Of a DNA stretch of 64,000 nt, positions 38,372 to 41,273 are shown one piece after another. The stretch covers positions 62,001 through 126,000 of the forward strand of contig NZ_FQWV01000001.1 in NCBI RefSeq assembly GCF_900129775.1. Direction: 5' to 3'. This stretch comes from Halobaculum gomorrense (GTDB lineage Archaea > Halobacteriota > Halobacteria > Halobacteriales > Haloferacaceae). Every line of letters starts with the position of its first letter. Position 1 is the stretch's first letter. The position numbers were made by a program, and so were the translations under genes. Under the pieces are notes generated by a model. That model was not told the DNA's origin. It saw nothing but the letters and a program-made list of their open reading frames with translations, and made no database searches.

Positions 38372-39142
38372 ATGAACTGCCGGCGGTGCGGCTCGTCGCT
38401 CCGCAAGCCCGGGGACTACTGTCTCGCCTGCGACACCGCCAACTGCGAGAGCGTCGTGATCGATTTCGGGGCCGAGCGCGCGACGCTGACGATGGTCGGC
38501 TTCGAACCCGAGCACCCGCCCGACGACTTCAACCCCGAGTCGCTGGTGCTGGGCGAGACGACGATCACGACGGTCCCCGACGACGGCGAGCGCACCGCGC
38601 AGGTCCAACTTCGCAACTTCGCGGGTCGCGTCGCCGACGAGGTCCGTCGCAAGCGCCCCGAGACGGTGTACGCCGCCGGCGAACGCGAGCCGCTGCGGGA
38701 GACCCGCGCGCAGTTGCACTACGCGTTCTACCGCGTCCCCGACGACGACCCCGTCGGCGCCGTGCTCGCGCGCCGCGGAGAGCCGGCGCTGGAGGTGGTC
38801 GACGCGCCCCCGGAGGCGAAGATCGGCGGCTCGCACTCGACGCTCATCGGCGAGCGGACCGGGATGAAAGCGATCCTGACGGCCGCCGACCATCCACACG
38901 TCAAGAAGGTGATCCCCGGCCCCATCGACGCCGGCGGCTCGGGCTCGCGCACGGGGCTGCGGGCGAAGGTGACGCGCGCGGACGAACACGGGAACGTCCG
39001 GATGCTCCTGCGCGACGGGTCGAGCGTGCAGGAGAACCGCGTCGTCACGACCGCGGGCGACCGCGAGACCGGCGAGCGCGTGCGCGACGACCTGAACGAG
39101 GTGCTCTCGGAGTCGGGGTTCGGCGAAGGCGGGGGTATCTAG
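38372..39142 (+). CDS. DUF2103 archaeal metal-binding protein
   Basis: 256 residues. An N-terminal ribbon (MNCRRCGSSL...YCLACDTANC) precedes a mixed domain and the DUF2103 core, KIGGSHSTLIGERTGMKAILTAADHPHVKKVIPGPI, about residues 149-195. The family is widespread in Euryarchaeota and its biochemistry is unknown. A GTTTATC TATA-like box 25-30 nt upstream of the ATG suggests a leaderless transcript. It ends 3 nt from the end of the truncated regulator. Confidence 0.85.
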   Translation: MNCRRCGSSLRKPGDYCLACDTANCESVVIDFGAERATLTMVGFEPEHPPDDFNPESLVLGETTITTVPDDGERTAQVQLRNFAGRVADEVRRKRPETVYAAGEREPLRETRAQLHYAFYRVPDDDPVGAVLARRGEPALEVVDAPPEAKIGGSHSTLIGERTGMKAILTAADHPHVKKVIPGPIDAGGSGSRTGLRAKVTRADEHGNVRMLLRDGSSVQENRVVTTAGDRETGERVRDDLNEVLSESGFGEGGGI

Positions 39143-39145
39143 CCG

Positions 39146-39634
39146 TCAGACCGTCCCCTGGTCGCCGGCGAGGCCGTGCTCGTCGGCCTCGGCGTGGGGG
39201 TCGGCGCGCTCGTACAGCGCGTGGAGGGTGAACGAGACGTTCCGCTCGCGGCAGCTGTCGCGGTAGGCCGCCAGCGCTGCGCGGTCGGGGAACTGCACGC
39301 GGACGTTCCAGCCGGTGTGGTCGCCGCTCGCGGACACCGGACGAGCGCCGGTGTCGGCGAACACGTGGTAGGCGGTTCGCTGGGTCGTCTCGGGCGCGAG
39401 GGTAGCCCGGTAGAACCGGAAGTCCGGCCCCTCGCCGAGCACGCGCACGTCCTCGACGGACGCGTCGTTTCCGAGGGCGTCCTCGAAGCGGGTCAGGTCC
39501 TCGCCGCGGGCGAAGAACTCGATACGCGTGGTGTCTCCCTCGACCGTTCGCTCCAGGTCGGCCGTCACCTCGGGTGCGGCCGCGAGGGCGTCGCGGAGGA
39601 CGGGCGTCGACAGCGTGAATTCGGCGATGAGCAT
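39146..39634 (-). pseudogene. Bat-like (HTH-10 family) regulator lacking its DNA-binding domain
   Basis: 162 residues from the ATG at 39634: the N-terminal sensor module of bacterio-opsin-activator-like regulators ([23 protein letters not shown]..., ...[22 protein letters not shown]..., [21 protein letters not shown]). In intact relatives this is followed by GLTxxQREAL and an HTH-10 domain of 50 residues that binds DNA. Here the text changes to GLAGDQGTV and stops, 3 nt from the convergent DUF2103 stop, so the HTH has been deleted. A CTTTATTTTC TATA (about 39670-39679) remains intact, so a truncated sensor protein may still be made. Confidence 0.7.
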
Positions 39635-39799
39635 TCCGGCGGTCTCCCGTGGCCATACGCGACCACGCACGAAAATAAAGCTGTGCCACGGACCCACGTC
39701 GGCGGCTGCGCGGAGGGTCCCCCCCGCGCTGTCGGCCCCTCGACGGCGACGGGTCGAATTCGCGGGGTTTTTGACGCCCAACGGCGAATCAGTCTCCAT

Positions 39800-40078
39800 A
39801 TGGCTGAACAGCAGAAGGCGCGGACGGTCGGCAGCGCTGGCCGCTTCGGCGCGCGATACGGTCGCGTCGCCCGCAAGCGCGTGTCGGACATCGAGGCAGA
39901 AATGGAGAACGCGACCGTCGACGGCGACTCGGTCAAGCGCATCGGCACGGGCGTCTGGGTCAACGAGGAGACCGGCGAGACGTTCACCGGCGGCGCCTAC
40001 CGGCCGGAGACGCCGGGCGGGCGCTCGGTCCGTCGGAGCATCCGCGCGGCGCTCGAAGACGAGAGCGCCGAGGAGTAA
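39800..40078 (+). CDS. rpl37ae: Ribosomal protein L37Ae, cysteine-free variant
   Basis: 92 residues. The N-terminus ([23 protein letters not shown]) and C-terminus ([18 protein letters not shown]) match L37Ae (eL43) without doubt. In the standard protein the middle has a Cys4 zinc ribbon (CPxC ... CxxC) around residues 40-60; here it reads [21 protein letters not shown], with no cysteine at all. The protein sits in the usual L37Ae-rpo12-pcc1 cluster with a good TATA (GGTTTTTG), so it is the working copy or a neighbour-bound variant; whether a zinc-bearing copy exists elsewhere cannot be seen. Confidence 0.88.
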
Positions 40079-40098: not shown

Positions 40099-40233
40099 AT
40101 GAGCTACAAGTGTTCCCGATGTAAGCGCGACGTCGAACTCGACGAGTACGGCGGCGTGCGCTGCCCGTACTGCGGGCACCGCGTGCTCCTCAAGGAGCGC
40201 GCCCCCGACGTGAAGGAAGTCAGCGTCAACTGA
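40099..40233 (+). CDS. rpo12: DNA-directed RNA polymerase subunit Rpo12 (RpoP)
   Basis: 44 residues, a gene easily missed for its size. The zinc ribbon CSRCKRDV...CPYCGHR (Cys5, Cys8, Cys22, Cys25) is followed by [12 protein letters not shown], the signature of archaeal Rpo12 (eukaryotic Rpb12). It lies 21 nt after the L37Ae gene and 16 nt before the Pcc1 start, all on the same strand, the conserved euryarchaeal order. Confidence 0.93.
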
Positions 40234-40248
40234 GCGGGCACCGCACCC

Positions 40249-40509
40249 GTGTCCGACGACTCCGACCACCGCGCGGTTCTTCGCTTTCCGTTTCCCGACG
40301 AGCGACGCGCCCGCGTCGTTCACGAGGCGATCGGGGTCGAGATCGGCGAGATTGTCGACGACCGATCGGCGGCCGAGGCGACTCGCGACGGCGCCGCGGT
40401 CGAAGTGACCGTCTGCGCGCGCGACCTCATCGCGCTCCGCGCGGGCGTGAACACCTGGACGCGCCTCGTCGAGACGGCCGAGACGGTGGCGACGACGGCC
40501 GAGCGGTAG
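40249..40509 (+). CDS. pcc1: KEOPS complex subunit Pcc1
   Basis: 86 residues from a GTG. The short alpha-beta Pcc1 fold shows [21 protein letters not shown], a middle acidic strand, and [28 protein letters not shown], the dimerisation helix. Pcc1 dimerises the KEOPS complex that makes t6A in ANN-decoding tRNAs. It is cotranscribed after rpo12 in the conserved cluster. Confidence 0.9.
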
Positions 40510-40616: not shown

Positions 40617-41009
40617 ATGCAGGGTAATCTGCCGCCGGAAGCACAAGAGAAGATCGAGGAACTCCAGGACCTGCAGGAGCAGGCCCAGCAGCTCGCCGAG
40701 CAGAAACAGTCCACGCAGACCTCGCTGACCGAGGCGCAGGCCGCGCTGGACGCGATGGACGACATCGACGAGGACTCCACGATGTACCGCGAGGTCGGCG
40801 AGATCCTTGTCGAGACCGACTACGCGACCGCCTACGACGACCTCGAGGAGAAAGTCGACACGCTGGAGCTGCGCGCAGAGCGCTTCGACTCCCAGGAGGA
40901 GAAGGTCCAGCAGCAGTTCGAGGAGCTGCAAGAGGAGCTCCAGCAGATGCTGCAGGGCGGCGCGGGCGGCGGCCCGGCGGGCATGGGCCCCGGCGCGGGC
41001 GGCGCATAA
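40617..41009 (+). CDS. pfdB: Prefoldin subunit beta
   Basis: 130 residues from the ATG at 40617; a CTTTTC box 25-30 nt upstream and the standard [16 protein letters not shown] opening set this start over an ATG at 40578. Two long coiled-coil helices (about 9-50 and 75-117) with a beta-hairpin between ([16 protein letters not shown]) identify beta prefoldin. The tail is Gly-rich. Beta and alpha subunits form the jellyfish-shaped chaperone that hands unfolded proteins to the thermosome. The DUF3194 gene follows after 3 nt. Confidence 0.93.
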
Positions 41010-41012
41010 GCC

Positions 41013-41273
41013 GTGAGCGACGACCGCCCCGAGCCGACCGACGAGGAGGTCGTCGAGACCGCCTCCGAGGCGGCCGAAGGGGTCGTGCTCGCGCGGTACC
41101 GGCAATCTGACCTCCGTGACTTCGACGTGACGGTGACGTTCGAGGAGGGCGTCCTCGACGTGGACGTGTACGTCAATCCGCCCGCGGACGCAGCGGCGGA
41201 CGCCGACGAGGTGGCCGAGGAAGCGGTCAGCGCGGCTCGCGACGCCGTCGACGAACTGTTCGGACTGGCGTAA
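41013..41273 (+). CDS. DUF3194 family protein
   Basis: 86 residues from a GTG. An acidic N-terminal helix (EEVVETASEAAEGVVLARY) is followed by a beta pair (DFDVTVTFEEGVLDVDVYVN) and a terminal helix, matching DUF3194, which almost always follows prefoldin beta in euryarchaea. The function is unknown, but conserved linkage suggests co-expression with prefoldin. Spacing of 3 nt indicates one transcript. Confidence 0.85.
   Translation: MSDDRPEPTDEEVVETASEAAEGVVLARYRQSDLRDFDVTVTFEEGVLDVDVYVNPPADAAADADEVAEEAVSAARDAVDELFGLA

Follow-up and report, generated by a model that had tools for sequence, protein, structure and literature searches.

Is the eL43 (L37Ae) gene of Halobaculum gomorrense, whose product lacks the cysteines of the zinc ribbon, a spare copy kept for zinc shortage or the ordinary ribosomal gene of its lineage, and by what route was the ribbon replaced? 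The gene lies in the 64,000-nucleotide stretch of DNA analyzed here (the window; contig NZ_FQWV01000001.1, positions 62,001 to 126,000) at 39800..40078 on the + strand, with an ATG at 39800 and a stop codon at 40076-40078. Its translation has 92 residues and no Cys, so that the C4 zinc ribbon typical of eL43 is absent, and a 30-residue middle (39896..39985, +) stands in place of the 34-residue ribbon. We propose that this middle is an exchanged stretch. It includes the Cys-free segment of 20 residues singled out by an earlier reading of the sequence alone (residues 40-59; 39917-39976). The Pfam family PF01780 (Ribosomal_L37ae) matches with 79.2 bits against a cut-off of 21.9 and is covered over profile positions 2-83 of 85, which bears out the description of a Cys-less L37Ae in that sequence-only reading. 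Its statement that the termini match L37Ae exactly is fair, yet both NCBIfam equivalog cut-offs are missed (NF003058, 84.8 versus 87 bits; TIGR00280, 74.2 versus 95.8 bits). Such misses would be expected if the equivalog models lean on the ribbon. The gene is filed here as a Cys-free eL43 and not as the standard zinc-binding equivalog; its orthology is taken from gene order, single copy, and a matching PDB chain. Sequencing error is excluded by the protein of Halobaculum litoreum, which is 96% identical, Cys-free, and the nearest named relative among the best 80 of 287 found in a contig search. These best 80 are all Cys-free and include Halorubrum, Haloferax, Natronomonas, Halovivax, and Halocatena.

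The surroundings of the gene agree with the L37Ae-rpo12-pcc1 cluster previously recognized. The gene is followed by rpo12 (RNA polymerase subunit P; 40099..40233, +; NCBIfam and ORF list), which retains its four Cys, and pcc1 (KEOPS subunit; 40249..40509, +; Pfam and NCBIfam). Prefoldin beta (40617..41009, +; Pfam, NCBIfam, and ORF list), the start of which we set at an internal ATG, and a DUF3194 protein (41013..41273, +; Pfam) come next. The upstream neighbor is a DUF2103 protein (38372..39142, +; Pfam), a relative of which occurs near eL43 in 113 of 132 Halobacteria loci. ORF 39146-39799 (-) contains a BAT domain (PF15915), the only Pfam domain found there; its first ATG abuts the ATG of eL43, and translation of this ORF probably starts at a more internal codon, for example the ATG at 39634. 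A T-run at -32 to -28 (39768..39772, +) is the probable core of an archaeal promoter, judged by conservation: the box GGGGTTTTTGACGCC, with TTTTT at -32 to -28, is kept in the four nearest relatives compared (L104, L291-L293), and a T-run is found at about the same place in four more family members. This conserved box would correspond to the "good promoter" of the earlier reading; a sigma-70 scan upstream of eL43, whose scope does not cover archaeal promoters, gave no promoter.

The presence of a Cys-free form first suggested a zinc-sparing paralogue, that is, a copy used in zinc shortage beside a C4 copy, and the Cys-free and C4 forms of eL43 do differ in the manner of bacterial C- and C+ forms, as far as the available part of PMC3087516 describes them. 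However, a profile search for a second, C4-containing L37Ae found exactly one eL43 match in the window genome, which is 99.89% complete, and at an E-value of 0.001 not one of the 389 matched Halobacteria genomes contained both forms. We regard a conditional paralogue as highly improbable. Two matches were obtained in eight genomes, and none of these pairs proved to be a C4 and a Cys-free eL43: one was the same gene repeated (G222) and seven were other zinc-ribbon proteins. When read, and named from their sequences, the seven were a TFS-like protein (G118), transposase-like and short unknown ribbons, and a ribbon on a UspA-like protein. The two equal-scoring eL43 genes of G222 are at C1:609-842 and C1:2880673-2880906 of a contig of 2929000 bases; perhaps they reflect an untrimmed circular assembly, an assembly overlap, or a duplication. 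No eL43 match was found in G331 and G348 (2 of the 391 Halobacteria genomes), possibly owing to assembly gaps. The window eL43 is the ordinary form in its lineage and the only copy found in its genome, and the interesting part is the pattern that surrounds it.

This pattern was drawn from a class sample of 391 Halobacteria genomes, in which the form of eL43 was called by the E-value of the profile search. Among the 389 genomes with a match, 123 score as C4 and 266 as Cys-free, and the E-values fall into two separate bands (123 genomes at or below 1.7e-30 and 266 at or above 6.3e-24). We read 132 sequences drawn from both bands and covering all 86 genera; every high-scoring row contains CxxC...CxxC and every low-scoring row is without Cys. 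In the window genus, all 11 genomes are Cys-free by score, two of which (the window genome and G087) were read. A Cys-free gene as the only copy across the lineage, which the sequence-only reading had named as evidence against its own proposal, is therefore what the genus contains; the same is true, by score, of every matched genome of the window family (f1) except G258, and two further f1 members are without a match. Family f4 is likewise Cys-free except for G238 and G265, families f2, f5, f6, f10, and f11 are represented in the sample by C4 genomes only, and f3, f7, f8, and f9 contain both forms. Both forms are also present within three genera: g41 (seven C4, two Cys-free), g47 (three and three), and g65 (two and two). 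The eL43 forms of Halobacteria hence alternate as C+/C- proteins do, being scattered and found one per genome.

Outside Halobacteria but in the same phylum, an eL43 match was found in 156 of 163 genomes. Nine of these were read and all have a C4 ribbon, six of them from outside g98 and three, belonging to g98, with diverged ends; the remainder were assigned by score. The g98 sequences (L138-L140) score low and keep the ribbon Cys; the usual GSAGRFG start is missing and the C-terminal end differs too. In this group, G533 has a weak eL43 fragment only, and G408, G438, G491, and G514 each have more than one L37Ae match. The two matches of G514 (g133, as is G491), at C2:69518-69757 and C46:734-976, both exceed 106 bits and represent a duplicate gene or a mixed assembly.

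How often the form has changed was estimated on a tree of the five genes beside eL43, built by a quick method that left 40 of its 129 inner branches open. The tree largely recovers the families and requires 14 form changes, and 10 are still required after branches with SH-aLRT below 95 are collapsed; 200 shuffles of the labels on the uncollapsed tree gave at least 35 changes. Trees of the eL43 ends, from which the ribbon was omitted, reject a single Cys-free clade (p-AU 0.0038 for all positions and 0.0026 for codon positions 1+2). These ends-only trees have 18 and 22 form changes and 16 and 18 family changes, and because the minimum number of family changes for the 11 families is 10, they carry a weak lineage signal.

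Two explanations of these changes can be taken first. One assumes an ancient duplication or polymorphism in early Halobacteria that was followed by differential loss, and it would fit the wide distribution and discreteness of both forms. However, no surviving genome with both forms was found, the ends are not sorted by form, and one and the same site holds either form, because rpo12 directly follows eL43 on the same strand in all 132 loci. This constant neighbor, together with the varying form and the uniformly Cys-free window genus, is also the outcome of the comparison across related genera that had been proposed for this locus. The other explanation, repeated loss of Cys in place with convergence of the sequences, would agree with ends that partly follow lineage and with the degeneration of a zinc ribbon in another haloarchaeal protein, TFE alpha (available part of PMC5861453). 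It is at odds with the uniformity of the replacement: the middle has 30 residues in 78/78 Cys-free rows and 34 in 54/54 C4 rows, the lengths by which the proposed exchanged stretch was delimited, so that the identical shortening by four residues recurs throughout. The Cys-free middles share TGE (78/78), VDGD (67/78), and NEETGE (62/78), and no intermediate with one to three Cys in the middle was found among the 132 rows. Moreover, C4 genes nested within Cys-free families would require rebirth of a whole ribbon. We consider in-place loss very unlikely, and the ancient duplication marginally more so.

The remaining choice is between replacement of the whole gene and exchange of a stretch inside it, and the pairs of related genomes that differ in form bear on both. 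Genus g47 is the clearest case, with the promoter and gene ends alike and the ribbon different. Between G215 (C4) and G225 (Cys-free), identity is 0.75-0.95 across 700 bp upstream and 0.92 at CDS positions 20-80, falls to 0.52 and 0.62 at positions 80-200, which include the ribbon, and rises again to 0.88 at 200-320 and 0.97 at 320-380 (rpo12), before dropping below 0.55 beyond approximately 620. The N and C parts of G215 are about as close to Cys-free G225 (0.92 and 0.87) as to C4 G133 (0.92 and 0.89). G133 in turn has an identity of 0.98 to Cys-free G060 over -40 to +20, with little similarity further upstream. On average, the ends of the g47 Cys-free genes have identities of 0.850 (N) and 0.858 (C) to C4 genus mates, 0.899 and 0.947 to Cys-free genus mates, and 0.799 and 0.755 to their Cys-free counterparts in other families. 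Since the ends are closer to the Cys-free than to the C4 mates, some of their sequence may have been transferred as well. In g41, the ends of the Cys-free genes are again nearer to C4 genus mates (N 0.879, C 0.875) than to Cys-free sequences from outside the family (N 0.785, C 0.778), and the region from -100 to -40 is poorly conserved between the pairs (0.22-0.61). G258, the sole C4 member of f1, resembles Cys-free G080 in its promoter stretch, and G080 is also the closest genome for its ends (0.85); for its ribbon, the closest match is family f3 (0.87).

Among the ten pairs compared, well conserved flanks occur only in those of g47 and g41, and not in all of these does the conservation include the upstream side; in the g65, g76/g71, g67/g36, and g21/g14 pairs the upstream regions are largely dissimilar. 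No donor could be pinned down, because similarity between families is nearly the same for the ribbon as for the ends (mean identity 0.781 and 0.755, respectively). When the own genus is excluded, the nearest ends are often in other families and of either form. The gene is short and its ends hold little signal, and codon usage common to a genus could inflate the likeness of its ends. Horizontal transfer of a complete Cys-free eL43 gene would account for the patchy spread over families and within genera, for ribbons of distant families that are up to 0.95 identical (G249 of f8 and G225 of f9), and for the N-terminal tails of g41, which split by form (MVNKKAG versus MGNQEVG). On the other hand, it would predict the single Cys-free clade that the ends-only trees reject, and in g47 the promoter and the N-terminal end are common to both forms. 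As a general account we judge whole-gene replacement unlikely, although it is possible in some cases; the most probable route is a swap of a short internal segment.

Our preferred explanation, which we consider reasonably probable, is a constitutive zinc-free version of the eL43 ribbon; swaps of a short intragenic segment would have spread it and in some cases undone it. The C4 ribbon would have been replaced by an acidic, Cys-free stretch shorter by four residues; this stretch is likely to adopt a beta hairpin and to pack against rRNA with no zinc involved. Homologous recombination between the conserved 5' and 3' parts of eL43 would swap approximately 90-120 bp, and the promoter, the gene ends, and the neighboring genes would stay. 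Reverse exchange to C4 probably took place in G258 and in genus g76. From the sequences, we infer that the Cys-free eL43 binds no zinc and that recombination was the route; the protein would keep its normal job, and one zinc per ribosome would be saved. The zinc-free form may be tolerated because of high salt in the cell and the trend to fewer Cys in haloarchaeal proteomes.

The closest solved relative of the window protein is eL43 of PDB entry 9l94 (9l94_R), together with seven further entries (E 3.9e-38), and it shows no Cys over the aligned part, 85 of 89 residues. It has been deposited as a protein of the large ribosomal subunit. As this chain has an identity of 92% to the eL43 of Haloferax larsenii/elongans and of no more than 84% to that of any other genus within the best 80 of 287, entry 9l94 is probably a Haloferax ribosome; we found no paper on it in the open-access literature. 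The AlphaFold model of the window eL43, with a mean pLDDT of 59, is too weak to establish the proposed hairpin; residues 41-60 reach 74-77, and strands are placed at 43-49, 52-55, and 61-63. With this model, the best Foldseek rows were eL43 chains, but at a TM-score of approximately 0.3 and E 0.006, and VIA-align returned three chains of other proteins (Z 2.2-2.5) and no eL43. According to the available part of PMC12605026, eL43 contributes to an intersubunit bridge, close to where the subunits meet, and is, in one study's count, among the three 50S proteins with the most RNA contacts; the same source refers to work on the YL37a zinc finger in yeast.

Other zinc ribbons of the haloarchaeal ribosome were compared with eL43. 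Reading of eL24 in 30 genomes (L261-L290) gave a four-Cys form in 16 and a form with one or two Cys in 14, an example of the latter being CDYSGEEIEPGTG...DSKAEKN and similar sequences. The eL24 of the window genome has four Cys, and that of 9l94 (9l94_M) is of the Cys-poor kind. In the window genome (L287; G000:C6:74776-74943), a TGA lies within the profile match near the C-terminal end, probably a true stop that the profile overruns. A DNA pattern for C4 eL24 agrees with all 30 reads and matches 151 of the 391 genomes. Among the 389 genomes with eL43, both proteins are C4 in 111, eL43 is C4 without the eL24 pattern in 12, eL43 is Cys-free with the pattern in 40, and 226 have neither; absence of the C4 pattern does not prove the Cys-poor form, as a Cys-poor pattern matched 44 of 80 genomes and missed seven of the 14 that read as Cys-poor. 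The 12 genomes comprise four with a Cys-poor eL24 (G133, G155, and G215 read, G158 by pattern) and eight that match neither pattern. The association was examined on the tree with 128 of the 132 rows, omitting seven of these eight genomes and G022 and keeping G200 as without C4. In independent pairs that differ in eL43, eL24 differs in the same direction in 4-5 of 10 and never in the opposite direction; in pairs that differ in eL24, eL43 does so in approximately five of six, again never in the opposite direction (median p 0.06 in both cases). The correlation is suggestive, not significant. Four Cys are present in eL37 and eS27 in all 30 genomes read, and eL42 was found in all 30. A broader picture, which we hold at slightly less than an even chance, is that an internal cassette of a single-copy archaeal ribosomal gene has alternated between ribbon and zinc-free hairpin at least 10 times, in both directions, by intragenic recombination, that eL24 loses its zinc ligands in a correlated way, and that zinc content is thereby a constitutive difference among haloarchaeal ribosomes.

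If the ribbon has been exchangeable many times, zinc would not be needed for the role of eL43 under high salt. If true, the exchange would also mean that a ribosomal protein gene serving as a phylogenetic marker can itself be a mosaic, and close haloarchaea with either form would provide a natural experiment on the reason for zinc in ribosomes.

Zinc-sparing C- paralogues of bL31, bL36, uS14, and other ribosomal proteins were reportedly described by Makarova in 2001 and Panina in 2003, and bacterial C- paralogues are often extra copies under zinc control. In them, as in the window eL43, a ribosomal zinc ribbon has lost its Cys ligands, but the window eL43 is a sole copy. The eL43 of Haloarcula marismortui (1s72, 3cc2) is the same protein, in the same place of the ribosome by orthology, but is C4 and has a middle four residues longer; the eL43 of 9l94 is Cys-free in its aligned part, as is the window protein, and Haloferax-like in sequence. 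A trend to fewer Cys in haloarchaeal proteins, and degenerate metal sites in haloarchaeal TFE, are described in the available part of PMC5861453. There, TFE alpha of Haloferax volcanii appears as a core information protein with a degenerate zinc ribbon that varies between haloarchaeal groups; TFE alpha retains one Cys and weak zinc binding, whereas the window eL43 retains none of the four Cys. Halobacteria account for 17 of the 26 archaeal ribosomal paralogues counted in a 2012 survey, and the term "L37ae" is absent from its main text as available (PMC3353972). Searches of the open-access literature turned up no description of a Cys-free eL43 or eL24 from haloarchaea. The closest parallel is the bacterial case of 2009 (PMC3087516), in the available part of which single ribosomal proteins exist in zinc and zinc-free forms with horizontal transfer. 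The protein described there resembles eL43 in being a core ribosomal protein with two patchily distributed forms, mostly one per genome; unlike eL43, it is bacterial and universal, 26 of 660 genomes have both forms, and genes were transferred. For eL43, the exchange seems to be intragenic, and no genome with both forms was found. The kind of system is already known from the bacterial C+/C- proteins, and the haloarchaeal pattern of Cys-free eL43 appears to be a new instance of it.
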